A DNA stretch of 15,092 nucleotides from Desulfurococcales archaeon (GTDB lineage Archaea > Thermoproteota > Thermoprotei_A > Sulfolobales > Desulfurococcaceae): the NCBI GenBank assembly GCA_026985375.1, contig JALSQP010000053.1, forward strand, positions 1-15,092, written 5' to 3'. Positions within the stretch are counted from its first letter, which is position 1, and every line of letters starts with the position of its first letter. The notes under the pieces were generated by a model, which saw only the letters and a list, made by a program, of their open reading frames with translations, did not search any database and had not been told where the DNA came from. A program made the position numbers and the translations under genes. Shown in pieces: positions 269-13,822 of the stretch.

Positions 269-1534
269 CTACTTCCACTTGGTCAGGTCGAGCTCTCCCT
301 CAGTTTTTGCGACTATTGATGTACCTACTAGGTCTCCCGTGACGTTGACCATTGTTCTGCCCATGTCTAATATGGCATCTATTCCTGCTATCATTGAGTA
401 TGCAAGCATCACATTAGGATTCGTCAATGGTAGTCCGACGCTTTGGAGCACCATGGCCAACATTATTAGACCCGCACTAGGTACGCCAGCCGTACCTATA
501 GAGGCTAGAACAGCTGTAAGCACTATCATCAGCTGTTGTGCTAAGGTCAAGTGTATCCCTAGGGCACTGGCTATGAAAAATGTCGCAATTGCTTGGTACA
601 TAGCTGTGCCATCCATATTGATAGTAGCTCCTAACGGTAGTGTGAAAGAGTAAACAGTCTTTTTAACGCCGAGATTTTCTTCAGCAACTCTCATCGTTAC
701 GGGTAATGTTCCTGAGGAAGACCTAGTTACAAAGGCTGTGAGCATAGCTTCCTTGGCTCCTTTTAGGAATTTTAATATGTTCAGCCTAAAGGCGGCGAGT
801 ATTCCTCCATACGTCACGAATATGTGTATGAATAGACCTACATAGAGCGCTATAACGGCGACGGCCAGCGGACCAAGTACTTTTGGCCCATATTTGGCGA
901 CAACATAGCCGATCAGAGCGAAAACTCCTATTGGCATGTATTCGAGGATACCTCTAACTATTTTGTACATCGCCTCGGCCAAGCCGTCAAATACTCGGTA
1001 CACGGTTTCTCCAGCCTTCCTAAGTCTTTCATTCCTACTGTTCATTAGATAGGTGAGGGCTATACCTAGCACTATGGCGAAGAATATGATCTGTAGAACC
1101 TTGCCCTCGGTTAGTGCGGCAAATGGGTTTGTAGGTACAATATTTAATAATACATCAACTATGCTTGGTGCTTTACTAACCTTTATGGTTGTCCCAGCAG
1201 CTGTTGATATATTCACGCCTGCGCCGACATTGAACAGCCTCGCCATGAATATACCTATTATGACCGCTACTGCTGATGTAGCGAGATAATATATTATGAT
1301 CTTTGTGCCTATTTTGCCCAGCTTCTTAGGAGCAATACTGGCCGCGCCAACGACTAGTGAGAACAAAACTATCGGTGCAACTATCATCTTTAGTAGTCTT
1401 ATCAGCAATGTGCCCAGCGGGTACAAGACAGCAATCTGTGGTCCCACGACAATGCCGGCAATGATTCCGAGGACGAAGCCGATAAGTATTTTATATATAA
1501 CCGGGAATCTCTTATAAGACTCCCATAAGCCCAT
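269..1534 (-). CDS. Sodium-coupled aspartate/dicarboxylate symporter (DAACS family, GltPh-like)
   Basis: Integral membrane protein of 421 residues that should import aspartate or a related dicarboxylate with sodium ions. It is collinear with the structurally known archaeal homologues GltPh and GltTk. Hairpin 1 carries RSSSGTLP at 271-278. Helix 7 carries NMDGT at 306-310. Hairpin 2 carries [11 protein letters not shown] at 345-355. Helix 8 carries D386, D390, R393, T394 and, in NVTGD, D401. All substrate- and sodium-site motifs of the aspartate transporters are therefore present. The start at 1534 is chosen over an in-frame GTG at 1552 because GGGTGG lies 6 bases before it and because [20 protein letters not shown] aligns with the GltPh N-terminus. 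The gene stands alone with its own promoter and terminator. Glutamate or C4-dicarboxylate specificity is possible, but the archaeal-type motifs favour aspartate. Confidence 0.95.
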
Positions 1535-1573
1535 GTGTATCCACCCGGGCACAAAAAAATATTAAGCCGTAAT

Positions 1574-1585
1574 AATTAATTAAAA
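1574..1585 (-). promoter_or_regulatory. Promoter (TATA box) of the symporter gene
   Basis: The minus strand reads TTTTAATTAATT here, about 45 bases before the ATG. The expected transcription start is near 1555, giving a leader of about 20 bases that includes the GGGTGG ribosome site. Confidence 0.45.
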
Positions 1586-2336
1586 TTCCCATGATCGTGG
1601 GTATAAACTATGGCGACAAACACTTATTCTTCCGAATCTCGTGCTAAGATCTAGATAACTATGGTTACCTTGAATATTTCTCTAGATCTACTTGCCATAA
1701 CCGTGTATATCGAGTCTAATGGTTTCCTCTATAAAGAAATAGTGCAGGTATAGGTCAGTACAATTAGGCGTATATTTAGCAGTTCTTAATGAGTCTCGAT
1801 AATTATGATAAAAGGGACAGCCATTCATAAGCAATGATATTTCACTATATCACAAAACACTTCTAGTGCATCTCAGACGACTAGCAAGCGTTTATCTATT
1901 TCACATCATTAATACTTAGTAACTATTACTAGTAAAAAACTCATATTCCATCTCTATGAGCTCTTTGATCTCAAACAATGTGTTGACTACATACATTATT
2001 CCTATGGAGCCATTGATCCTAATCCTTGCTAACATGCATCTATCATTTCTATTATAAATATCCCTATTTTTTCCTAGAAAAAAGCAACTTTAGATAGCAA
2101 ATTATTATTGATAAGTCTTCTTACGTGTTCTTTTGTTTTGGATTATTTGTATTCTATCCGTTGTATATCCTACACGGTCTTGTACGTATTTCTTCGAAGG
2201 AGGTCAGGAAAGTGCACGATACGATTATGATGTCTCATGTACTGTTTCCAGTTCCGTATGGAACACAACATTTTAAGGAGTGTTTCAATATATGTTGGCA
2301 CGTATTTTTTAAATATTGATGGTTACTTTAATATCG
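1586..2336. other. Long intergenic region without a confident gene
   Basis: About 750 A+T-rich bases separate the symporter promoter from the binding-protein promoter region. I find no tRNA, rRNA, CRISPR array or insertion sequence in it. Several short frames are open on both strands: plus 1661-1753 (30 residues), minus 1916-2035 (39 residues), and frames on both strands around 2170-2320. None has a full set of promoter, ribosome site and recognisable product. Decayed genes are a possible reading. Confidence 0.5.
1916..2035 (-). pseudogene. Possible gene remnant, 39 codons, weakly Pcc1-like
   Basis: The minus strand encodes MLARIRINGSIGIMYVVNTL followed by an acidic helix-like tail and a TAA stop. 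The frame stays open about 18 codons further upstream without an obvious start. A beta strand followed by an amphipathic helix resembles the C-terminal half of Pcc1, the small KEOPS tRNA-modification subunit. The N-terminal half that Pcc1 needs is not visible upstream. No ribosome site precedes the ATG. It may be a fragment of a lost gene, a real micro-protein, or chance. The Pcc1 resemblance is a judgement by eye. Confidence 0.2.
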
Positions 2337-2367
2337 TTATTCAATTTGTATTTACTGAATTGAATAA
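2337..2367. promoter_or_regulatory. Perfect 10-base inverted repeat, candidate operator
   Basis: TTATTCAATT at 2337-2346 and AATTGAATAA at 2358-2367 are exact reverse complements separated by 11 bases. The half-site centres are 21 bases apart, two turns of the DNA helix, as expected for a dimeric helix-turn-helix regulator. The site lies about 40 bases upstream of the TATA box of the binding-protein gene, and its right arm runs into a second TATA-like stretch. Regulation of the importer by a local repressor or activator is inferred. Confidence 0.45.
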
Positions 2368-2409
2368 ATATATAGGAGTATGATTCTTCCTCCCACCTGG
2401 TTGGGAAAG

Positions 2410-2418
2410 TTTATATTT
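2410..2418 (+). promoter_or_regulatory. TATA box of the binding-protein gene
   Basis: TTTATATTT is preceded by purine-rich GGGAAAG at 2403-2409, which resembles a TFB recognition element. The predicted start near 2440 gives a leader of about 30 bases before the ATG at 2473. This placement argues against any longer reading of the gene that begins upstream at 2380. Confidence 0.6.
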
Positions 2419-2472
2419 CTGTTCCATTCTCTATACGTGTATAAACAATGTCTCCACGAGAGGCGAGTAAAT

Positions 2473-4152
2473 ATGGGTCTAAAGGCACTATCCAAACAGG
2501 TAGCAACCGCAATAATCGTTGCGATAGTGATTATAGGTGTGGTAGCTGGCTACTATGCCTTCCAAGCAAGCAAGGCTCCTGCATCGCCTGCAAGTATCTC
2601 TCCATCTTCGTCCAATCCTTCAGCAACGACGAGTCGGTCATTCACTTCATCAACCACCACTAGCTCCGCGAGCCCGACGGAGGCCAAAGTGGAGAGCGAG
2701 ATAGTGATCGGTGTGACGGATAAGGTTACAGATCTTGACCCGGCAAACGCTTATGACTTCTTCACCTGGGAGGTCCTCTACAACGTTATGGAGGGCCTCG
2801 TCAAGTACAAGCCAGGCACCACTGAGATCGTGCCTGGACTTGCCGAGAACTGGACGGTAAGCGGTGACGGTAAAGTATGGACTTTCGTACTAAGGCCGAA
2901 CCTGAAGTTCAGCGATGGAACCCCTCTGACCGCTAAGGATGTTGTTAGGAGCATTGAGCGTGTCATGAAAATCAAGGGGGACCCATCATGGCTCGTGACA
3001 AGCTTCGTCGAGAAAGTAGTAGCTAAGGACGACAGGACAGTGGTGTTCTATTTGAAGCAGCCTACAAGCTTCTTCCTAGCACTAGTCGCGACACCACCAT
3101 ACTTCCCGGTTAACCCCAAGTATCCGGGGGACAAGATCGTGAGCGATGCTACCTGGGGAGGAGCAGGGCCTTACAGGATAGTGAGGTTCGTCCGCGACGT
3201 AGAGCTGGTGCTCGAGGCCAACCCGTACTATTACGGCCCGAAGCCCAAGACAGAAAAGATAATCATCAAGTTCTACCGCGACGCGTCAGCCCTAAGACTA
3301 GCCCTCGAGAGCGGAGAGATCGATATCGCCTGGAGGACTCTGAGGCCAACCGATATACAGTACTTCAAGCAGCAGAGCGGGTTCAAGGTTATCGAGGTAC
3401 CAGGCAGCTTCATCAGGTATATCTGCTTCAACACCAAGGTCTCCCCAACGGACACTGCCTTGGTCAGGAAGGCTTTAGCCGCAGCGATTGATAGACAGCA
3501 GATCATAGACACAGTGTTGCTGGGCGCTGGTGAGCCGCTGTACAGCCTTGTACCCAAGGGGCTCTGGAGCCACGTGGATGCCTTCAAGGTATATGGTGAC
3601 GCTAACACTGAGCTGGCCAAGAAGCTACTAGAGCAGGCAGGCTACAGCAAGGACAAGCCCCTAGAGATAACGCTCTGGTACACACCGACTCACTACGGAG
3701 ACACCGAGGCGGATATTGCCCAGCTTATAGCGCAGCAATGGGAGAAGACAGGTCTAGTAAAGGTAACGATCAAGAGCGCTGAGTGGAGCACCTACGTATC
3801 ATATATAAGGAAGGGGCAGCTACAAGCGTATTTGCTTGGCTGGTATCCAGACTACCTCGACCCCGATGACTACCTGACCCCGTTTCTCGACAGCAATGCC
3901 AACGGGTGGAGCGGAACAGGGTTCGCCAATGAGACCGTGAACAAGCTACTCGAGAAAGCGCAGACGATAGTAAATCAGCAGGAGCGCGCCAAGATCTATG
4001 AGGAAGTACAGAATATACTTGCCGAGCAGGTACCGTACGTCCCGCTGTTTCAGGGCAAGCTATTCATAGTGACGAGGAGCGATATTGAGGGCATAATACC
4101 GAGCCCGACCATGATATTAATGTACGACACGATATACAAGGTGCAGGGCTGA
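2473..4152 (+). CDS. ABC importer solute-binding protein, family 5 (Opp/Dpp type)
   Basis: Extracellular binding protein of 559 residues that captures the substrate and delivers it to the permeases encoded downstream. Residues 1-8 are basic and 10-30 form one hydrophobic segment. Residues 33-70 are a Ser/Thr/Pro-rich linker, and the family-5 binding domain runs from about 75 to the end. The pattern DLDPANAYDFFTWEVLYNVM, then GLAENWTVSGDGKVWTF and LKFSDGTPLTAKDV, is the family-5 N-terminal signature. The N-terminus (MGLKALSKQVATAII) resembles the class III, prepilin-like signals of crenarchaeal binding proteins, so it may be processed by a PibD-type peptidase or stay as an anchor. There is no lipobox. 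The ATG at 2473 is chosen because the in-frame ATG at 2380 lies before the TATA box, and GAGAGG sits 9 bases before 2473. The ligand may be peptides or oligosaccharides. Confidence 0.92.
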   Translation: MGLKALSKQVATAIIVAIVIIGVVAGYYAFQASKAPASPASISPSSSNPSATTSRSFTSSTTTSSASPTEAKVESEIVIGVTDKVTDLDPANAYDFFTWEVLYNVMEGLVKYKPGTTEIVPGLAENWTVSGDGKVWTFVLRPNLKFSDGTPLTAKDVVRSIERVMKIKGDPSWLVTSFVEKVVAKDDRTVVFYLKQPTSFFLALVATPPYFPVNPKYPGDKIVSDATWGGAGPYRIVRFVRDVELVLEANPYYYGPKPKTEKIIIKFYRDASALRLALESGEIDIAWRTLRPTDIQYFKQQSGFKVIEVPGSFIRYICFNTKVSPTDTALVRKALAAAIDRQQIIDTVLLGAGEPLYSLVPKGLWSHVDAFKVYGDANTELAKKLLEQAGYSKDKPLEITLWYTPTHYGDTEADIAQLIAQQWEKTGLVKVTIKSAEWSTYVSYIRKGQLQAYLLGWYPDYLDPDDYLTPFLDSNANGWSGTGFANETVNKLLEKAQTIVNQQERAKIYEEVQNILAEQVPYVPLFQGKLFIVTRSDIEGIIPSPTMILMYDTIYKVQG

Positions 4153-4193
4153 GAACAGTAGATGAAAAGCATCCACCCGGTTTTTAGCTAGGT

Positions 4194-4224
4194 AATTATA
4201 ATTCACTGTCTTTTTCCTTCTCTT
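4194..4224 (+). promoter_or_regulatory. Pyrimidine tract and TATA-like box between binding protein and permease
   Basis: The 132-base gap holds AATTATAATT at 4194-4203 followed by a T/C tract at 4209-4224. The tract could end most transcripts after the binding-protein gene. The TATA-like box could start a separate transcript for the membrane and ATPase genes. Either would let the binding protein be made in excess, which is common for ABC importers. Only the elements are seen; the roles are inferred. Confidence 0.35.
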
Positions 4225-4284
4225 AATCCCCGCGGCAATAGTGACTACAGGGTCATCGTGGATCAGGGTATTAGGGTGTAATAA

Positions 4285-5307
4285 ATGGCGAAAAAGGGGC
4301 TCGGATACTATATAGTGGTAAGGGCGCTCATGATAATTCCCACAATCCTAATCCTCTACACAATAGTATTCGTACTCCTAAGAATCCTTCCCGGCAACCC
4401 CATACTAGCAGTAGTGGGCACTAGGAATATTCCGCCTGAACAACTCAGACACCTAGAGCACCTAGCCGGGCTCGACAAGCCCTTGATCGCGCAGTACTTC
4501 GACTATCTCTGGAACGTGCTCCACGGCAACTTCGGGGTAACCCTGGCTTCCCCTATGGGTGTACCAGTCATGGACTATATAGCGACAAGGTTCCCGGCGA
4601 CCCTCGAGCTCGCCATTTGGGGCTTCACGTTCAGCGTCATCATAGGATTGGTGACAGGGATGATAGCGGCTCTGAAGAGAGGAGGCAAAATCGACACGAC
4701 GATGAGGATCTACAGCATAGTAGCATACACGCTCTTCATACCGTGGCTCGGCATGATACTCCAATACGTGTTCGGAGTCGTATTAGGGGTTCTACCAACC
4801 GGTGGAAGAATTGATCCGAGGATAAATCTGCAGACAATAACAGGCCTCTACGTGCTAGACAGTATATTGACCGGCAATCTACCAGCACTAATAAGCAGTA
4901 TCAAGCACCTGATACTCCCGAGCCTAACCCTGGGGATAGTGCTCAGCGGCGCCTACACCAGGCTCGTCAGGAACAACATGGTGGATGTTCTCAGCATGGA
5001 CTTCATAAGAAGCTACAAGGCAAGGGGTATACCCGGCTACAAGATAACATGGTATGCCCTCAAGAACGCCTTCATACCCGTGATAACCTTGATGGGCCTC
5101 CAGTTCGCGATCCTCCTAGGAGGAGCAATACTTACCGAGACCACTTTCAGCTGGCCCGGCATGGGAACCTTCATAGTGGACAGAATAGAGTACCGTGACT
5201 ACAACTCCATACAGGGAGCAATAATATTCTTCGCGTTCTTCGTAGCGGTCATAAGCCTAGTAGTAGACGTGATCTACGCCCTACTAGACCCGAGGATCAA
5301 GTACTAG
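4285..5307 (+). CDS. ABC importer permease, DppB/OppB type
   Basis: Inner half of the translocation channel, 340 residues with about six membrane helices. The first helix (8-32) leads into RILPGNP at 33-39, the typical DppB opening. The cytoplasmic EAA loop that docks on an ATPase lies at about 243-266 and contains ARGIPGYKITWYALKNAFIP. It is followed by the conserved block TETTFSWPGMG at 284-294. Length is normal for the family. The ATG at 4285 is preceded by GGGTG with a 6-base spacer. The next gene begins 12 bases after the stop, so the two permeases are co-transcribed and should form a heterodimer. Confidence 0.93.
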   Translation: MAKKGLGYYIVVRALMIIPTILILYTIVFVLLRILPGNPILAVVGTRNIPPEQLRHLEHLAGLDKPLIAQYFDYLWNVLHGNFGVTLASPMGVPVMDYIATRFPATLELAIWGFTFSVIIGLVTGMIAALKRGGKIDTTMRIYSIVAYTLFIPWLGMILQYVFGVVLGVLPTGGRIDPRINLQTITGLYVLDSILTGNLPALISSIKHLILPSLTLGIVLSGAYTRLVRNNMVDVLSMDFIRSYKARGIPGYKITWYALKNAFIPVITLMGLQFAILLGGAILTETTFSWPGMGTFIVDRIEYRDYNSIQGAIIFFAFFVAVISLVVDVIYALLDPRIKY

Positions 5308-5319
5308 GGGTGAACAATC

Positions 5320-6192
5320 ATGGACAGAAGGATCAAGCCCAAGAGCCTCCTATCTCCGCTGGCAAAACAGCTCACCAGCCGCCTCCCAGGCAGAGGCCTA
5401 TTACTAGCAGGGCTGGCCATAGTCCTCCTATTCATGGGGATGGCGGTCTTCGCCCCGTGGATAAGCCCCTACGATCCCACCAAGATGGTGGACAAGCCCT
5501 TCCTACCCCCAAGCCTCAAGCACTTCATGGGGACGAACAGGATAGGCCAGGACGTATTCTCAAGGATTATATGGGGTAGCAGGATAGTTCTCTACGTAGT
5601 GTTCAGCGCCACATTACTAAGCATGGCGATAGGCATACCGCTCGGTCTACTGAGCGGCTACAGGGGAGGAAAAATCGACCGTGTATTGAGCATGTTCATG
5701 GACAGCATGTACAGTTTCCCAGCACTGATACTAGCAATAGCCATAGCCGCGGTGCTTGGGCCGAGCCCGATGAACACAGCTATAGCAATAGCCTTCGTAT
5801 ATATACCGACATACTTCAGAATGATACGTGGCCAGACACTCAGCATCAAGAGCCAGTTATTCATTGATGCCGCCCATGCCCTGGGAATACCGGACAAGAG
5901 AATAATGCTCATACACATACTCCCTAACCTAGCACACACGATACTGGTTGTTTTCAGCCTCAGCGTCGCCGATGCCATATTGACGGAGGCCGGCCTGAGC
6001 TTCTTAGGACTCTCGGTGACGCCTCCAACACCTGATTGGGGATACGACCTGAGAGTCGGGCAGCCGTTCTTCCTGAACGGGCAGTGGTGGCTAGTATTCT
6101 TCCCAGGATTATCGGTCATGCTTCTCGCAATGGGCTTCGCCTTGATAGGCGAGGCTCTAAGCGAGAGGCTCAGCCTAGCACAGTCGATCTAG
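5320..6192 (+). CDS. ABC importer permease, DppC/OppC type
   Basis: Second channel subunit, 290 residues. The N-terminal cytoplasmic tail is followed by a helix at about 27-47. Next comes the DppC-specific segment GTNRIGQDVFSRIIWGSR at 71-88. Four to five further helices follow, with the EAA loop at about 184-206 (AAHALGIPDKRIMLIHILPN). The conserved end of the loop, TEAGLSFLGLSVTPPTPDWG, is at 222-241. The ATG is preceded by GGGGTGA only a few bases after the previous stop, a very strong ribosome site. It pairs with the DppB-type permease, and its loop should contact one of the two ATPases encoded next. Confidence 0.93.
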   Translation: MDRRIKPKSLLSPLAKQLTSRLPGRGLLLAGLAIVLLFMGMAVFAPWISPYDPTKMVDKPFLPPSLKHFMGTNRIGQDVFSRIIWGSRIVLYVVFSATLLSMAIGIPLGLLSGYRGGKIDRVLSMFMDSMYSFPALILAIAIAAVLGPSPMNTAIAIAFVYIPTYFRMIRGQTLSIKSQLFIDAAHALGIPDKRIMLIHILPNLAHTILVVFSLSVADAILTEAGLSFLGLSVTPPTPDWGYDLRVGQPFFLNGQWWLVFFPGLSVMLLAMGFALIGEALSERLSLAQSI

Positions 6193-6204
6193 AGGTGGGT
6201 ATGG

Positions 6205-7161
6205 ATGCCTAGATATCTTCTCGAAATAAAGGACCTGGTTGTCAAGTACTATGCATTATCAGGAATAGTTAGGGCAGTAGACCATGTCTCCCTCGCCGTA
6301 AAGCCGGGTGAATGGATCAGCGTCGTAGGCGAGAGCGGCTGTGGAAAGAGCACAATGGCTTACAGCATAGCTAGGCTCATAAGCCCCCCGGGAAAAATCG
6401 TCGACGGCAAAATAGTCTTTGACGGGAGAGACCTGCTCAGGACGAGCCCGAAAGAATTCAGGAAGATACTTGGACGAGAAATAGGAGTAGTGTTCCAGGA
6501 TCCTATGACAAGCCTCGACCCCCTCAGGAGAATAGGAGACCAGATAGCCGAGGTATACATGACACACCTAGGAATGAAGAAGAAGGAAGCCATAGAAAAA
6601 GCAATTGAGGTCCTGGAGAGAGTAGGGATCCCGCGCGACAAGATCAGTGCCTACCCTCACCAGATGAGCGGTGGCCAGAGACAACGCGTCGCTATAGCGA
6701 TAGCAGTGGCTCTCAGGCCCAAGCTACTCATAGCCGACGAGCCTACCACGGCGCTGGACGTCATAGTCCAGGACACGATAATGGATCTGCTGCAGAGCTT
6801 CAAGAAAGAGGGGACAAGCATATTGTTCATTACACACGACCTAGCACTGGCCGCGGAGCGAAGCGACCGTATAGCGGTCATGTATGCTGGAAAACTCGTC
6901 GAGGAAGGCCCCGCAGAGAAAATAGTGGAGAACCCCCTACACCCCTATACCCAGGGACTCCTCAAAAGCGTGCCAGACCTATGGGGCCCTAAGAAGATCG
7001 AGAGCATACCAGGCTACCCGCCGGACCTACGGAGCCCGCCGCCGGGATGTAGATTCCACCCACGCTGCCGCTACGCAGGCGAGAGCTGTAGGAGGGAAGA
7101 ACCTGTCCTAAGGTGTTTTGGTGAACACTGTGTAGCGTGCCATAGGGCTTGGGTCAAGTAA
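6205..7161 (+). CDS. ABC importer ATPase, DppD/OppD type
   Basis: Cytoplasmic motor subunit of 318 residues. Walker A is GESGCGKST at 42-50, with the Q-loop glutamine at 98. The signature is SGGQRQR at 155-161, Walker B is LLIADEP at 174-180, the D-loop is TALD, and the switch histidine is H211. A C-terminal oligopeptide-transporter domain from about 240 carries a cysteine cluster: C282, C288, C295, C304, C309 and C312. The spacing C-x5-C-x6-C followed by a distal cysteine recurs in the partner ATPase and could bind a metal or iron-sulfur cluster. The start follows GAGGTGGG with normal spacing, 12 bases after the DppC-type stop. All catalytic residues are present. Confidence 0.93.
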   Translation: MPRYLLEIKDLVVKYYALSGIVRAVDHVSLAVKPGEWISVVGESGCGKSTMAYSIARLISPPGKIVDGKIVFDGRDLLRTSPKEFRKILGREIGVVFQDPMTSLDPLRRIGDQIAEVYMTHLGMKKKEAIEKAIEVLERVGIPRDKISAYPHQMSGGQRQRVAIAIAVALRPKLLIADEPTTALDVIVQDTIMDLLQSFKKEGTSILFITHDLALAAERSDRIAVMYAGKLVEEGPAEKIVENPLHPYTQGLLKSVPDLWGPKKIESIPGYPPDLRSPPPGCRFHPRCRYAGESCRREEPVLRCFGEHCVACHRAWVK

Positions 7162-7183
7162 GGCCGAGAGGTGAGCAGATAAG

Positions 7184-8170
7184 ATGGATCCCGTTCTAAT
7201 CGTTAAGGATCTGAGGAAATACTTCCCGGTAACCAGAACACTGCTCGACATGATCAGGGGGCACAGCCAAGAATACGTTAGAGCAGTAGATGGCATAAGC
7301 TTCAAGATCAAGAAAGGCGAGACACTCTCCCTCATAGGCGAGAGCGGATGCGGCAAAACCACGACAGGCAGGCTAGTGCTAAGGCTTGAGGAGCCCAGCG
7401 GTGGACAGATAATATTCAAAGGCAGAGACATTACAAAGCTCACCAGGAAGGAGCTCAGCCCCCTCCGCAGATACATGCAGATGATATACCAGGATCCATA
7501 CGCCAGCCTCAACCCGAGGATCAAGATAGGAGACCAGATCGCAGAACCGCTCATAATACATGGGCTAGCAACACCTAGAGAAGCACGCGAGCAAGCACTA
7601 GCGATGTTGAGGCGTGTAGGCCTAACACCCCCCGACGAGTTCTACGGGAGACTACCACACCACCTCAGCGGAGGCCAAAGGCAACGAGTAGTCATCGCTA
7701 GAGCCATGATACTAAAGCCGGAGTTCATCGTGGCCGACGAGGCAGTCTCAATGATAGACGTGTCGATGAGGGCATCAATACTAGACCTGCTCGAAAGCTT
7801 CCGCAGAGAATACCAGTTATCAACACTCTTCATAACACACGATATAAGCGTGGGGAGAATAGTCAGCGACCGCATAGCCGTCATGTACCTGGGCAAAATA
7901 GTTGAGATAGGGCCTACAGAAGAAGTCATAAACAACCCTGCGCATCCCTACACGAAAGCACTCATCGACGCAGTACCAAGCATAAGGAAGAGAGAAAGAG
8001 AAAGACTAAAGATCAAGGGCGATGTTCCAGACCCCAGGAACCCGCCTCCAGGTTGCAGGTTCCATACGAGATGCCCGTTCGCAACAAAGGAGTGTAGCTC
8101 GTCGGAGCCAGAGATGATAAGGGTAGGGCCGGAACACTATGTTGCTTGTAGATCACCTATTTCCCCATGA
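7184..8170 (+). CDS. ABC importer ATPase, DppF/OppF type
   Basis: Second motor subunit, 328 residues, expected to pair with the DppD-type ATPase in one transporter. Walker A is GESGCGKTT at 52-60, with the Q-loop glutamine at 103. The signature is LSGGQRQR at 161-168 and the switch histidine is H219. Walker B reads FIVADEAVSMID at 181-192: the catalytic Glu is kept, but the usual Pro after it is Ala and the D-loop is SMID rather than SALD. The C-terminal domain repeats the cysteine pattern C291-x5-C297-x6-C304-x17-C322. GAGGTGAG lies before the ATG, 22 bases downstream of the previous stop. This is the last gene of the importer operon. Confidence 0.93.
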   Translation: MDPVLIVKDLRKYFPVTRTLLDMIRGHSQEYVRAVDGISFKIKKGETLSLIGESGCGKTTTGRLVLRLEEPSGGQIIFKGRDITKLTRKELSPLRRYMQMIYQDPYASLNPRIKIGDQIAEPLIIHGLATPREAREQALAMLRRVGLTPPDEFYGRLPHHLSGGQRQRVVIARAMILKPEFIVADEAVSMIDVSMRASILDLLESFRREYQLSTLFITHDISVGRIVSDRIAVMYLGKIVEIGPTEEVINNPAHPYTKALIDAVPSIRKRERERLKIKGDVPDPRNPPPGCRFHTRCPFATKECSSSEPEMIRVGPEHYVACRSPISP

Positions 8171-8295: not shown

Positions 8296-8317
8296 AGGAA
8301 TTCTTATATAGATTCCT
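8296..8317 (+). promoter_or_regulatory. TATA box framed by a 6-base inverted repeat
   Basis: TTATATAG at 8304-8311 is a good TATA box placed to start transcription near 8333, almost at the ATG at 8342. It is flanked by AGGAAT (8296-8301) and ATTCCT (8312-8317), which are exact reverse complements 10 bases apart. A regulator bound there would block TBP. The inverted repeat is short enough to be chance. Confidence 0.45.
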
Positions 8318-8341: not shown

Positions 8342-9187
8342 ATGGGGTATATAGGAAAGCTTCTCTCAATAATACCTGTGATATTAATTCTTCTCATCGG
8401 TGCAACCATATCTCTTAGCGGGTCAGGACTCTATGTACTGGGAACTGACGGAAACGTTCCTAGTGAAGAATCCACATATGTTGATGACCTAGTTAACTGG
8501 ATAAGTAATGCTGCAAATTATGGCTCCCATCATCCCGGCATAATATACTCTGATCCGAGCGCAGTCAAAGACTCGATAATGGATGCCGCATCTCCGCCAG
8601 AGGATCCAGCTATCGTATTTTTTGTCGGGCACGGCGAGTTCGGAGCAGTTGCTCTCCATAGGGTTTACCTCATAATAGATAATAATAACAACATAGTAAG
8701 TGATAACTCAACATACTCTGCTACCGTAGCAAGGAGGGTTCATTTTGTTTTTCTTCACTCCTGCTTCCTAGGTGCGGAAATAGGCGGGTTCTTCACGATC
8801 CCATCAATAACGGGTCCTATACCATATCATTATGGAATGCCGCAGGCCTGGCTTCACACAACAATAATTTCTCCTAATGGATACGAAAACCCGGATCACA
8901 CCGGTTACGTATTCATTGGATGGAAAGGGCCAGCACCCTTCTTATCAGCCGATATTCTGGGAGCCAACGATACTATGTATAGGTTCATCGGTAATTTCTT
9001 CGACAAGTTATTCGGATACTATACATTACCGGCCAGTAGCGTGAACCAGGCGCTGGACTATGCATCACATGCGGTATTTGGAGAATACACTAGATTCGAT
9101 GAGACGCCACTATATAGTGGTTTCAGCCTGGACGGGATGGATACATCTATGATCGTATATGGTGATGGAAGCTATGATAACTGGTAG
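8342..9187 (+). CDS. Exported clan CD (caspase/legumain-type) cysteine peptidase, predicted
   Basis: A 281-residue protein with a hydrophobic export segment at about 5-25 and no C-terminal anchor, so it is secreted or held by its N-terminus. A hydrophobic strand ends in VGHGEFG (catalytic His97 proposed). A second strand, VHFVFLHSCFLG, ends in Ser-Cys (catalytic Cys141 proposed). This hydrophobic-HG then hydrophobic-xC arrangement, 44 residues apart, is the hallmark of clan CD peptidases such as caspases, legumains and gingipains. The later GYVFIGWKGPAPF and an Ala-rich helix around 233-245 also resemble the end of that fold. The closest subfamily and cleavage specificity cannot be told. The leader is very short. 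The gene's end overlaps the start of the next gene, implying linked expression. It could supply peptides to the adjacent importer or process surface proteins. Confidence 0.7.
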   Translation: MGYIGKLLSIIPVILILLIGATISLSGSGLYVLGTDGNVPSEESTYVDDLVNWISNAANYGSHHPGIIYSDPSAVKDSIMDAASPPEDPAIVFFVGHGEFGAVALHRVYLIIDNNNNIVSDNSTYSATVARRVHFVFLHSCFLGAEIGGFFTIPSITGPIPYHYGMPQAWLHTTIISPNGYENPDHTGYVFIGWKGPAPFLSADILGANDTMYRFIGNFFDKLFGYYTLPASSVNQALDYASHAVFGEYTRFDETPLYSGFSLDGMDTSMIVYGDGSYDNW

Positions 9188-10406
9188 AACTGCGATAATA
9201 TTGTTTGTCATAGCTTTACTAATTATCAGTATACCGGCCTCCCCCCTAGTACTCAGCATTACTGGGGAGGATTACGGGATAAGTGAGAAAGCCTTGACAG
9301 AGCAAGTACGCGACATAATTCTCGATATATTCAAGATCAATATAACAAACTATAGGCTTGAAAGCATCGAGCTACAGGACATATACGGTGGAGGCAAGTA
9401 CTCCGAAGAAATATATATGGTTGTTTTCAAGAACAATGAAAACTACGCTATAAAGACCGAGGCAGACGTGGTGGCCGGCCGAGTAATTGGCGTTGTAATG
9501 TATAGTCTTCCTGCCCCAACAGATGTTATTAAAAACATAAATATACGTCTCAAACTTATAAATGACAAATCATATATGGATGGGAAAGCTCTGAGGATGC
9601 TCTTAAATGATCTCGCAAGGAGCATCCGTAGGCTATATGGGGGCTTGGCCAAGCCCATCACTGAAGCACTTGTTAAGGCGAGTTCTAGGATACCGGATGC
9701 TCTTATGATCACAAAGGGGTGGAACGGGTATACATATCGAATCAATATAACAAGCGAATACTCATTAGTAATACAGGCCTTCTACATGAACGGCGCTAAT
9801 ACACCCCTAGGATTCTCATTATCTATCTGGAAAAGTCTCGCACTTCCGTTCAAGACCAAGGTTAAACGGGGAGTCCTCAACGTGGATTATGATGTGGCCA
9901 GTAACAAGACCTATGCTTACAGGTTTGAGATACAGCCTTTCTTCGCGGATGCATATGTAGTTGTCCCAGAGAAAATTAAACATATAAGCCTCGACAGGGT
10001 CATAGAGACTGTTGATCAGGCACTCAATAATTATCTTCATGACAAAGGAATAACGGGCTATACTATAGAATCAATCAAGCCTAAATGGATAACCTATAGT
10101 CAGCGAATGGATAAAGGCCACCTGGTTATCATCCCTGGTAATAGATTAACGCTGGAAGCCAAGGTAAGAATAGGGCATGAAACAAAATATTATCTAATTT
10201 ACCTAGACCTAGACTCTATGAAGGCGACCATAAAAGAAAACTACTATTATGGAAGAACTCTCCAATACACAAACTCTGATAATGAGAAAGAAACACCTGG
10301 TTCACTACTAGGCCTCGGAACAACTGCGGCGATCATTATATCCATAGCGCTTCTGTTGATAATATTGTTTTACACTAAGAATATGATGAAAGGGAGATCC
10401 CAATAA
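9174..10406 (+). CDS. Membrane-anchored ectodomain protein with two PepSY/YcdB-like repeats
   Basis: A 410-residue type I membrane protein with a signal peptide at about 5-25, a long external part, a membrane helix at about 382-400 and a short basic tail. Residues 36-112 and 270-355 share one plan: a helix, then a short motif (ITNYRLESIEL; ITGYTIESIKP), a beta sheet, and an ending like YLIYLDLDSMKATI. This matches the general pattern of PepSY/YcdB-like domains, which occur in protease propeptides and inhibitors. The assignment is by eye and tentative. The ATG at 9174 is chosen from several (9159, 9165, 9174) because GGTGA sits 7 bases before it and it gives a clean signal peptide. It overlaps the peptidase gene by 14 bases, so translation is probably coupled and the product may control or retain the peptidase. 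Confidence 0.75.
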   Translation: MITGRTAIILFVIALLIISIPASPLVLSITGEDYGISEKALTEQVRDIILDIFKINITNYRLESIELQDIYGGGKYSEEIYMVVFKNNENYAIKTEADVVAGRVIGVVMYSLPAPTDVIKNINIRLKLINDKSYMDGKALRMLLNDLARSIRRLYGGLAKPITEALVKASSRIPDALMITKGWNGYTYRINITSEYSLVIQAFYMNGANTPLGFSLSIWKSLALPFKTKVKRGVLNVDYDVASNKTYAYRFEIQPFFADAYVVVPEKIKHISLDRVIETVDQALNNYLHDKGITGYTIESIKPKWITYSQRMDKGHLVIIPGNRLTLEAKVRIGHETKYYLIYLDLDSMKATIKENYYYGRTLQYTNSDNEKETPGSLLGLGTTAAIIISIALLLIILFYTKNMMKGRSQ

Positions 10407-10500: not shown

Positions 10501-10576
10501 TATCTAGTTTATTTCATATTTGAATAAATATAGATTAAAAAGGATAGGTTTATGGTGTAGGGGTGATGTTGACATA

Positions 10577-11788
10577 TTGATTAGGTATGCTGAGACACTC
10601 ATGCGTTGTATTGCTGTAACAGCCTTTATTCTTGTTATTATCTTCCCAGCTACACTGCAGGCATCTGCACCATTAGTGTCATCGAAGGAGAAAACTATTA
10701 TTGGAGAAGCCGAGAATATACTCTCGAAGATATTCTCAATAAATACGACAAGATATAGTTTGGTGAAAATCTATTTTGCTGGTGGAAGCGAGTATTATGG
10801 CGCAACAATTAAAAACTACCTTATAATATACAGGGGTATAAATAATCAGTCGCTTATCTTGGATACCTATACTTTGCATGGATACATCGTACGTCTCATG
10901 ATCATTGGATCCCCCTTATTCTATGGCTGTATAGAAGGAGCCCAGCCGAAAATAAAGACAAGGGCTGGCGGCATTGTCCTAGACACTAGTATCTTGAAGG
11001 ATATTCTAAACAATACGATCGGATTACTACACGGTATCTATGGATGCCTCGCCAACTCTACGCAACATGTTCTGAGAATCACGCTCCATGAGATCACTTC
11101 ATCCCAGATAGTATTGTCTGGTAAAACGGGCTATAGATACATGATTATTCTGCCAGGAAACTATATCTTCGAAGTTAGCGGTGATCAGCTTGAACTCTCA
11201 ATATCGCTTATCAAGCAGCTGAGCCTGCCTCTCGGCATAATTTACCGAGAAAGAGTGCTGTACATTCACTTCTACATTGTGAATGGAAAACTCTGTGGCG
11301 ACATATTCTCCTACAACCCGCTTCTCCCCGGGGCTAGGGTTTTTATCCCCGAGAAACTATGGAAGGTAAGCGTCAATGCTGTCATCAAAAGAGCTGGGGA
11401 GATACTTGAAAAATACCTGGCAAGAAACGGTATTAAGAACTATAGTATAATATCGGTAAAACCCGAACAGATAGGTATTAAAGAGTATGTCGAGAACTGG
11501 AGCCTGACAATAGTTCCCAGCACCGACCTTGTTCTAACCGCATCCGTCAAAACAGGATCCGGGATAAGACACTATCTCGTCTACCTAAACCTCGACACGA
11601 TGGACGGGCTCGTAAAGGGCGAGTATATCAATATTGTACATGAAGGTGAGAACATGGCCGCAGTACCTGAGTCCAACACTGTGAGCCCTTGGAGCCAAGG
11701 CGCCCTAACATTGTTGATCGCCTTGATAGCAACAGGGGCTATAATGGGCCTCTGCCTGTACAGCTTGAAGAGAGTACAGAAGAAATAG
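10577..11788 (+). CDS. Diverged paralogue: membrane-anchored protein with two PepSY/YcdB-like repeats
   Basis: A 403-residue protein with the same plan as its upstream neighbour: signal peptide (about 8-30), repeat 1 (about 36-110), a middle region, repeat 2 (about 264-350), and a C-terminal helix (about 375-396) with a basic tail. Matching motifs include NTTRYSLVKIYF against NITNYRLESIEL, VFIPEKLWKVS against VVVPEKIKHIS, and HYLVYLNLDTMDGLVKGEY against YYLIYLDLDSMKATIKENY. It arose by gene duplication and then diverged widely. It has extra cysteines (C118, C157, C240) that the neighbour lacks. The start is uncertain: TTG 10577 has GGGGTGA 10 bases upstream, ATG 10601 also gives a full signal peptide but no ribosome site, and TTG 10520 falls at the predicted transcript start. 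It has its own promoter, so its expression need not follow that of the peptidase. Confidence 0.75.
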   Translation: MIRYAETLMRCIAVTAFILVIIFPATLQASAPLVSSKEKTIIGEAENILSKIFSINTTRYSLVKIYFAGGSEYYGATIKNYLIIYRGINNQSLILDTYTLHGYIVRLMIIGSPLFYGCIEGAQPKIKTRAGGIVLDTSILKDILNNTIGLLHGIYGCLANSTQHVLRITLHEITSSQIVLSGKTGYRYMIILPGNYIFEVSGDQLELSISLIKQLSLPLGIIYRERVLYIHFYIVNGKLCGDIFSYNPLLPGARVFIPEKLWKVSVNAVIKRAGEILEKYLARNGIKNYSIISVKPEQIGIKEYVENWSLTIVPSTDLVLTASVKTGSGIRHYLVYLNLDTMDGLVKGEYINIVHEGENMAAVPESNTVSPWSQGALTLLIALIATGAIMGLCLYSLKRVQKK

Positions 11789-12292: not shown

Positions 12293-13822
12293 TCATCTTA
12301 CACCATAATATCTTGCTATTAGGGCAACTATTACCATTATTATCGATAAACCCGTCGTTAAGGTTATTAGTGTGACCAGTTGTAGGTGTGGGAGAGCAGG
12401 TTCTTTAGTGTTGCTTGATGTTCCTGAAACGTGTTGCAGAGCAGTGGTTGCAGTGGTTGTAGTGTGGTGCGTGATCATTGGAGATGTTTGGTTGAGTCCG
12501 CCGCGTCCTATCGTTCTAGATATCGTGGCTGAAGCGGTGGTCTGGGAAGGCATTGGCTTTATGCAGTAAAGGTAGAAGTCACGGCTTGCTTGTAGGATCT
12601 CTAGCATTCCATCGCCGTCTATATCCGCGATGCTTGGAGGCCTCATAAGCGGGCCCTTTGTCTCTAGGAAGTACTCGGGCCCTTTCTTGTAGTTGATTAT
12701 TACTAGTCGCCCGTCATAGCCCGGAACTATTATCTCTGGTATTCCATCCCCATCAACGTCCGCATAAATAGGAGTTGCATAGCCTTTCGTGTATGGGAAG
12801 CTATATATTTGTGTGCCGTTAATGCTGTAGACGTACAACCCCTGACTACTCGTCACGGCTACGTCCGGTATATGGTCTCCATTGAAGTCGCCGATCGCCG
12901 GGCTCATTGATATATATCCCGGTACATCGATCTGGCTAATTATTTTTAGGCTTGGCAACAAGAATATAACTACTTGATGCAATGTTGTTGCTACTGCCAG
13001 TTTTTCTCCACGATAATCTACTACAGGTATTCCTCCGTGGATTTGATCACCTATTTCGTTGTGAGAGACTATTTTGCCTGTGTATGGGTCTATTAACGCT
13101 ATGTATCCTCTAGTTTCTCCTATTTCCTGTTCGGATAAGGCTGTTCCAATCAATATATATGGCTTATCATGTATCTTAACAATGGAGGGAGAGTAAATTA
13201 TGCAATTACCTATCCTTATCTTCCTAATTATCGGCTTGTTATCTTTAATGGTGATTATATAGAGATTACCGTCCCAGCTCCCGATCACTATATCATCGTG
13301 CCTTGAATAGATAGGATATAGTGCCGGGGAAGTTATACTAAAATCCCCGTGTATTCTATATTCTAGCTTCCCAGTAGCCGCATCGAGGATCCATAGATCC
13401 CCTGGCCCACTCCCTACAACCACATCGATCTGCCCGTCACCATTAATATCGCCCAAGGCTGGTGTATCCATTCCACCACCCGTATTATATGACCATACTA
13501 GTTCGCCTCTACTATTAACTACATATAAATGTCCGTCACAGCTTGAGAAATAAATCAGCGTCTTCCCATTTATCTTGGCTATGGCTGGCTGGCTCGCGAT
13601 ACAGAGTTTTGCCTCGAATTTCCACGCGACTTTGAACCTAGTTGCCCTGATTACAGAGTGTCCGGGAAAAGTACCGTTGTGTTGCGGAGTATACATGTAC
13701 ATAGGCCATAGAATTCTTGTTTTATCCGGGTTCTCCGCGGGTTCAGCTATACCTGGCTGAATATAAGGGGAAATTAGGGCGACTAACAGTATTATAAATG
13801 CTATAATCTTTATTATATGCAA
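12293..13822 (-). CDS. Cell-surface FG-GAP/VCBS beta-propeller protein with C-terminal anchor
   Basis: A 509-residue exported protein with a signal peptide at about 4-26 and a repeat domain at about 60-422. A Ser/Thr-rich stalk follows at about 425-475, then a membrane helix at 483-503 and a short tail. The repeat domain holds four clear calcium-type loops: GDINGDGQID (124-133), GDFNGDHIPD (311-320), ADVDGDGIPE (354-363) and ADIDGDGMLE (399-408). Between them are blades of the form DGxLYV, with PQQ-propeller flavour such as GELVWSYNTGG. Such propellers usually bind proteins, glycans or calcium rather than catalyse. The start codon is TTG, supported by AGGTG 7 bases upstream and by the signal peptide directly after it. 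The gene is divergent from the exporter ATPase. Its ligand is unknown. The stalk is probably glycosylated (inference). Confidence 0.88.
   Translation of the reverse strand: MHIIKIIAFIILLVALISPYIQPGIAEPAENPDKTRILWPMYMYTPQHNGTFPGHSVIRATRFKVAWKFEAKLCIASQPAIAKINGKTLIYFSSCDGHLYVVNSRGELVWSYNTGGGMDTPALGDINGDGQIDVVVGSGPGDLWILDAATGKLEYRIHGDFSITSPALYPIYSRHDDIVIGSWDGNLYIITIKDNKPIIRKIRIGNCIIYSPSIVKIHDKPYILIGTALSEQEIGETRGYIALIDPYTGKIVSHNEIGDQIHGGIPVVDYRGEKLAVATTLHQVVIFLLPSLKIISQIDVPGYISMSPAIGDFNGDHIPDVAVTSSQGLYVYSINGTQIYSFPYTKGYATPIYADVDGDGIPEIIVPGYDGRLVIINYKKGPEYFLETKGPLMRPPSIADIDGDGMLEILQASRDFYLYCIKPMPSQTTASATISRTIGRGGLNQTSPMITHHTTTTATTALQHVSGTSSNTKEPALPHLQLVTLITLTTGLSIIMVIVALIARYYGVR

Follow-up and report, generated by a model that had tools for sequence, protein, structure and literature searches.

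A predicted exported clan CD cysteine peptidase encoded next to a membrane-anchored partner in a Desulfurococcales archaeon

Here, we describe a family of archaeal proteins, represented in a 15,092-nucleotide stretch of DNA (the window; contig 53 of a Desulfurococcales archaeon genome of 0.99 Mb and 69% completeness), whose members conserve a His/Cys dyad, display profile similarity to clan CD peptidases and are linked to, or fused with, a second protein. The initial annotation had treated the gene as a stand-alone enzyme, which is not borne out: the peptidase-like gene forms a module with a second gene, and the two also occur as a fusion. These observations suggest a two-part cell-surface system of a caspase-like enzyme and a membrane-anchored partner. 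On balance, we favor a reading in which the protein is a cysteine peptidase of clan CD that is exported, is docked or controlled by a membrane-anchored partner, and here probably supplies peptides to the adjacent oligopeptide transporter. Within this reading we infer the fold, the catalysis, the physical pairing, the control by the partner, and the nutritional role. The features of the window are collected in Table 1.

Table 1. Features of the window, with positions counted from its first nucleotide
Feature	Position	Strand	Remarks
Oligopeptide/dipeptide ABC transporter operon	2380..8170	+	Genomic context, outside the module
Predicted exported clan CD-like peptidase	8342..9187	+	ATG open reading frame, 281 aa; assigned from family, conservation, profile match, and hydropathy
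Partner 1	9159..10406	+	Predicted exported and membrane anchored, 415 aa; hydrophobic segments at residues 13-31 and 386-404
Partner 2	10520..11788	+	Tandem partner copy, 27% identical to partner 1

The peptidase-like gene and its family

The peptidase-like protein starts with one hydrophobic segment (residues 7-25 by hydropathy). His97 (codon 8630-8632) lies inside IVFFVGHGEFG, and Cys141 (codon 8762-8764) lies inside VHFVFLHSCFLG, where the segment reads FVFLHSC. The two residues are 44 positions apart, and Gly-His97-Gly and Ser-Cys141 each end a hydrophobic stretch. The open reading frame, the signal or anchor segment, the G-H97-G word, and the S-C141 word 44 residues further on, as given in the initial annotation, are all present. 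Upstream of the gene, we observe by eye a TATA-box-like word, TTATATAG, at window positions 8304-8311, about 35 bases before the start, which suggests an own promoter for the peptidase-partner module.

A single-sequence search with the window protein retrieves 3 relatives, and a nine-row profile retrieves 38 (weakest E value, 2.5e-10), none of which carries a Pfam peptidase domain. Thirty-seven of these 38 proteins, together with the window protein and three loci, form alignment A4 (41 rows), from which P0001, 94% identical to the window protein, was left out. A wider alignment of 63 rows adds 22 genome loci, 23 having been tried; L026, L028, L037, and L038, which contain an internal stop, the duplicates L022-L024, and L029 were excluded. 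Across the 63 rows, Cys141 is invariant and D121 is kept in 61. The His97 column contains 56 H, 3 D, 1 E, 1 P, and 2 gaps, with the His kept in all nine rows of the nearest relatives. At this level of conservation (Cys141, 63/63; His97, 56/63), the dyad is more than a chance pattern. Other strongly conserved words are GMPxAWLHT and GYxFIGF/W, and we know of no clan CD family with such words. In the one close pair for which DNA is available (G001 and G005), the peptidase-like genes are under purifying selection (dN, 0.017; dS, 0.071), and third codon positions account for 17 of their 25 nucleotide differences.

The conservation of the dyad bears on whether the protein is an enzyme at all, since it could also be a non-catalytic exported binding protein that has inherited the clan CD fold. 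His97 is replaced in 5 of the 63 rows, and the HG word is absent in a divergent member (L162:1248-2597) that keeps the Cys (WHC) and has a partner directly downstream; some members may therefore be inactive, and L162 is possibly such a variant. Pseudo-enzymes are also reported among orthocaspases (PMC6426788). With Cys141 invariant and His97 kept in 9/9 of the nearest relatives, however, we regard a non-catalytic role as improbable for the window protein, which is likely, if putatively, an active cysteine peptidase. The homologue conservation anticipated by the initial annotation accordingly holds for Cys141 throughout and for His97 among the nearest relatives, and does not extend to every His97 of the wider family.

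Family matches are observed in 7 of 214 genomes of the order (E value, 0.01) and, with genomes sampled evenly across the phylum, in at least 33 of 398 (E value, 0.001), with at least five divergent copies in the richest genome; all counts of family and partner in the 398 genomes are lower bounds. Two of the 38 profile-found relatives (P0020 and P0024) bear the source names Bathyarchaeia/Bathyarchaeota. Three family members (L110:4587-7223, L113:6151-8817, and L132:514-3141) have long N-terminal extensions and a partner gene downstream, that of L132 being cut by the contig end; DUF2341 is found in the two extensions scanned, those of L110 and L132 (E values, 4.5e-15 and 1e-14). Broken or fragmentary peptidase-like copies also occur (L111 in G022:C18, L161, and G295:C105), and those of L111 and L161 lie beside a partner gene, whole or in pieces.

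We rejected a mobile or viral origin, as no family relatives are found in the viral contigs (pattern scan with A4) or in the plasmids and phages (single-sequence tblastn) searched. An assignment as a defense system was likewise rejected, since PADLOC yields stray matches of one member each, the best of which pairs a methyltransferase model with the window protein (E value, 0.001).

Similarity to clan CD peptidases

No Pfam or NCBIfam model reaches its cut-off for the window protein, which makes the new subfamily proposed by the initial annotation, or a new family, reasonable. Two models match below threshold over the His region: CHAT (PF12770) at 15.8 bits versus a cut-off of 24 (E value, 0.01), the match extending to the Cys, and the NCBIfam model caspase_w_EACC1 (NF047832) at 13.6 bits versus a curated cut-off of 140 (E value, 0.035). 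Neither Peptidase_C25 (PF01364) nor C14, C13, C11, C50, or C80 matches the window protein at an E value of 10, a listing in which HMMER filters drop most matches above approximately 0.1, or any of the 41 members at 0.1. Among these 41, three touch CHAT (best E value, 0.01), and no other clan CD model appears at 0.1. Searched by sequence, the PDB returns nothing related, the best hits (E values, 0.26 and 0.18) being unrelated molecules.

For comparison below these thresholds, 29 archaeal domains assigned by Pfam serve as yardsticks: 18 from 30 C25 loci (L056 apparently being mis-sliced), all 7 C14, 2 of 3 C11, the only CHAT, and 1 of 5 C13 loci, the other four being the same genes as C14 yardsticks. 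The 106 controls are proteins outside the family, 150-500 aa long, drawn from the neighborhoods retrieved. Ten yardsticks score 25.1-41.1 against the family profile, above every control (maximum, 23.9), among them a C14-type domain (L088, 41.1) and a C13-type domain (L093, 34.7). These ten are only partly independent, comprising three close C25, six related C14, and one C13 domain. With the active sites hidden from the aligner, nine of the ten matches pair H97 with the histidine of the HG word and C141 with a template cysteine, and the tenth covers the His only. Forty column-shuffled profiles run against four templates reach at most 22.9 versus true scores of 33.3-41.1. The other 19 yardsticks are not above background, including 15 of the 18 C25 domains, both C11 domains, and the CHAT domain. 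A relationship to established clan CD families is thus detectable at the profile level for 10 of the 29 yardsticks.

Profile-versus-alignment comparison, in which the C13 and CHAT targets are one sequence each, gives the 41-row profile probabilities of 87.7 for C13, 50.2 for C25, 48.6 for C14, 1.0 for CHAT, and 0.2 for C11; with the 63-row profile the values are mostly lower (57.2, 19.9, 16.7, 1.3, and 0.1, respectively). The match of the 41-row profile to the C13-type domain spans 136 columns, running through both dyad residues to the C-terminal helix.

Caspases have a six-stranded sheet in which strands 3 and 4 end in the dyad His and Cys (PMC4357240). The His/Cys arrangement read from the window protein fits this layout without amounting to proof of it. 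It is conceivable that the HG...C pattern is coincidental and that the fold is something else, since the sequence search of the PDB yields no relative of solved structure and 19 of 29 yardsticks stay at background, but the comparison of profiles against controls, in which the dyad falls in register, makes this very unlikely. The clan CD assignment of the initial annotation is supported by that comparison and by the conservation of the dyad, and is tempered by the yardsticks at background. On sequence grounds, we predict clan CD kinship and fold for the window protein with high confidence.

Alternatively, the window protein could belong, as an outlying sequence, to one of the known clan CD families (C25 gingipain-like, CHAT, C14, or C13). 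The weak CHAT and EACC1-caspase matches (E values, 0.01 and 0.035) and the best profile scores, obtained against C14, C25, and C13, point in this direction. We nevertheless consider it improbable, given the distance of the CHAT and EACC1 matches from their cut-offs (15.8 versus 24 bits and 13.6 versus 140 bits), the lack of matches to any other clan CD model, and the presence in the same genome of a separate C25 protein that Pfam recognizes at 119 bits. This C25 domain lies in an open frame of 1,101 aa at G000:C140:1046-2245 (L063).

Comparison family by family reveals both likeness and difference. Like clan CD peptidases in general, the window protein has a His-Gly and a Cys that end hydrophobic stretches 44 residues apart, with the dyad in register; unlike them, it falls into no Pfam or NCBIfam family and is accompanied by a linked gene for a membrane-anchored partner. 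C25 peptidases are likewise exported and of clan CD type, and in the alignments of three of them (L057, L058, and L061) both catalytic residues are matched, yet the window protein has no PF01364 match, 15 of 18 C25 yardsticks are not above background, and its 281 aa in total compare with C25 domains of about 300-430 residues in frames of mostly 450-1350 aa. High single profile scores are shared with C13 (legumain) and C14 (metacaspase/orthocaspase) domains, which differ in that the window protein has no Pfam match to them and reads SCFLGA where a template (L083) reads SCYSGG. CHAT and EACC1-associated caspases resemble it through sub-threshold matches that cover the His. Both kinds of protein are known from systems inside the cell, whereas the window protein is predicted to be exported and scores below both curated cut-offs.

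The predicted fold class is already known. The libraries searched contain neither the family nor the pair, and we recognized no description of either in the open-licence literature searched.

The partner, its linkage, and its fusion

The start of partner 1 overlaps the end of the peptidase-like gene. For partner 2, the listed TTG start is mechanical, and judging from the sequence an ATG at 10601 is the likelier start. A single partner gene likewise follows the peptidase-like gene in four other genomes (G001, G005, G006, and G155), and in distant genomes a related partner family occupies the same place (alignment A5, 15 rows). The two partner types match only over approximately 70 N-terminal residues (hhalign probability, 95.4 and 90.6), and some distant partners match the window-type partner profile directly (L115, E value of 0.0012, and L133).

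Family matches in the 398 genomes (75 rows) merge to at least 72 loci, fragments included, and among the matches listed a partner, whole or in part, adjoins or is fused to the family member at 69 of these 72. An A5 partner is located within 1 kb on the same strand at 57 of the 72 loci listed, 34 times downstream and 23 times upstream. All but one of the upstream partners are fused, sharing an open frame of 645-2106 aa, the exception being a broken copy in G022. Of the 15 loci that remain, the window, G001, and G005, which represent the window's own genus, carry the divergent partner, and nine more have a partner on inspection, among them L132 (a 72-aa piece at a contig end), L130 (in pieces), and L128 and L134 (fused to only part of a partner). 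The last three are two loci at contig ends (G394 and G508:C73) and one gene fragment (G295:C105). Counted by genome among the matches listed, the family occurs in 33, the partner in 39, and both in 29 of 398, where about 3 would be expected if the two were independent. Four genomes have the family but do not appear among those listed for the partner: G000, G001, and G005 possess the divergent partner, and in G394 a 132-aa start is cut short by the contig end.

Gene order differs between the two forms, with the peptidase preceding the partner when they are separate and the partner preceding the peptidase when they are fused, as in a 674-aa protein of G006. Nine rows of a 35-row tree are fused, and the best tree has four changes between the fused and unfused states when two uncertain rows are left out (L103, at a contig end, and L130, with the partner in pieces). 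Counting these two as unfused gives six changes, four of them forced by well-supported branches. A single fused clade is rejected (p-AU, 4.2e-4; the two uncertain rows again left out), on a tree that has long end branches and in which fission after fusion is indistinguishable from new fusion. All seven fusions examined contain one N-terminal and two central hydrophobic segments, the latter between the domains, so that both domains would lie on the same side of the membrane, most likely the outer one. That peptidase and partner are linked in either order argues strongly for a joint function, and we think it very probable that the two proteins pair physically.

What the partner does is less readily predicted. 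Pfam recognizes no domain in it. Words such as EEAIDIAKKA and WADTGEI hint at a PepSY domain, but profile comparison gives no support for this candidate: PepSY appears in 1 of 15 members at an E value of 0.26, below the cut-off, and with an hhalign probability of 3.3 over 18 columns. As no PepSY propeptide domain is detectable, the proposed control by the partner is drawn by analogy. The gingipain propeptides, reported to control an exported peptidase (PMC3677877), offer such an analogy, as an accessory polypeptide is paired with an exported clan CD peptidase in both systems. In contrast to a gingipain propeptide, the partner is in most cases a protein of its own, anchored in the membrane, and it recurs by itself and on transcription regulators as well. 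The chances that the partner is an anchor, chaperone, or inhibitor are about evenly balanced, and a role as substrate or signal receiver is less likely.

Genomic neighborhood and possible roles

In the mechanism that we favor, Cys141 would be the nucleophile and His97 the general base of an exported clan CD cysteine endopeptidase. The peptidase would work outside the cell, paired near-obligately with the product of the next gene downstream. The ectodomain of the membrane-anchored partner would dock the peptidase at the surface and keep it folded and in check, a form of control modelled on the propeptides of other exported peptidases. Released peptides would then be taken up by the neighboring oligopeptide ABC transporter.

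The module begins 171 bases past the last gene of the transporter operon. Pfam places SBP_bac_5 at 2464-4149 and ABC_tran/oligo_HPY at 7184-8167 within this operon, and we assigned the two permeases and the other ATPase by eye from the open reading frames. The window (269-8170 and 12293-13822) and G001 (L011) share flanks consisting of a symporter, the transporter operon, and an FG-GAP protein, the binding proteins being 93% identical and the flanking genes matched by eye. In G001, the module is on the opposite side of the transporter operon, between the operon and the symporter, which indicates that it relocated locally yet stayed beside the transporter. In G005, whose contig starts inside the transporter, the gene order from the binding protein onward is the same. 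G394 belongs to another family; genes for a binding protein, for permeases, and for ATPases are found upstream there, with one opposite-strand gene between. Linkage to the transporter is thus seen in four genomes, three of them of one genus, and not at the other family loci looked at, so that a feeding role is supported mainly in the window organism, for which we hold it to be an even prospect.

The partner domain also occurs apart from the peptidase, being found in 10 of the 398 genomes without a peptidase match among the matches listed. We inspected 14 loci with a seemingly lone partner (G026, G324, and L156-L167). Among them, L162 has a family member and L161 a fragment of one, and at L157 a 97-aa open reading frame before the partner (4589-4882) shares 84% identity, across 92 residues, with the start of the long member L132 and seems to be what is left of a peptidase gene that was lost. 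At the remaining loci, no peptidase gene was recognized by eye among the listed neighbors. At L163:4429-5766, L164:5194-6516, and L165:5039-6397, the partner domain forms the outer half of membrane-bound ArsR-type proteins. All three of these proteins, when scanned, have an N-terminal HTH_5 domain above the Pfam cut-off and one membrane segment each. They are encoded in G443, which also has the peptidase-partner pair, and in G375 and G528, both of the taxonomic family f14, as are many carriers. Judging from frame length, many other partner matches, in frames of about 430-490 aa, may be the same type of regulator. Given its occurrence without the peptidase and on regulators, the domain may be a general archaeal outer-surface recognition domain, which may bind either the peptidase or something that the regulator senses.

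These regulators raise the alternative of a surface processing or signaling sheddase, which would cut the ectodomain of the partner, and perhaps those of the ArsR-type regulators, to send a signal from outside to inside rather than to feed the cell. Such a role would be in line with the near-obligate linkage to and repeated fusion with the partner and with the partner domain on regulators, one of them in the pair-carrying G443; the several divergent copies per genome also fit specific recognition better than bulk digestion. In the stretches around the three regulators no family member was found, however, and the oligopeptide transporter neighborhood in the window fits feeding better, so that we judge a sheddase unlikely. 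A fuller version, in which surface caspase-like peptidases and a partner domain that is also present on ArsR-type regulators constitute archaeal outside-in proteolytic signaling through parallel pairs, appears more doubtful still. If it were true, proteolysis or release at the surface would report to the genome through several parallel pairs per cell.

The favored reading, that of an exported peptidase with a docking or controlling partner, touches on how archaea gain access to protein. C25 (gingipain-like) genes are given as the most abundant exported peptidase genes in estuary sediment, with archaeal occurrence stated (PMC6752024). For archaeal metacaspases, a 2012 survey reports 5 of 114 genomes, all Euryarchaeota (PMC3501461). 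In the window's phylum, we find Pfam C14 domains in 7 of 101 genomes. A cultivated member of Bathyarchaeia is described as having intracellular peptidases, the class being cited there as deficient in extracellular proteases (PMC10477458), and one order of Bathyarchaeia is stated in a review to degrade detrital protein with extracellular peptidases (PMC12694404). As the family includes members with Bathyarchaeia names and is not recognized by Pfam or NCBIfam, it is a candidate for overlooked enzymes of this kind.

Exported peptidases give peptide-eating archaea access to protein, and the near-obligate, repeatedly fused partner described here would putatively provide a novel means of anchoring or controlling caspase-type enzymes on the archaeal surface.
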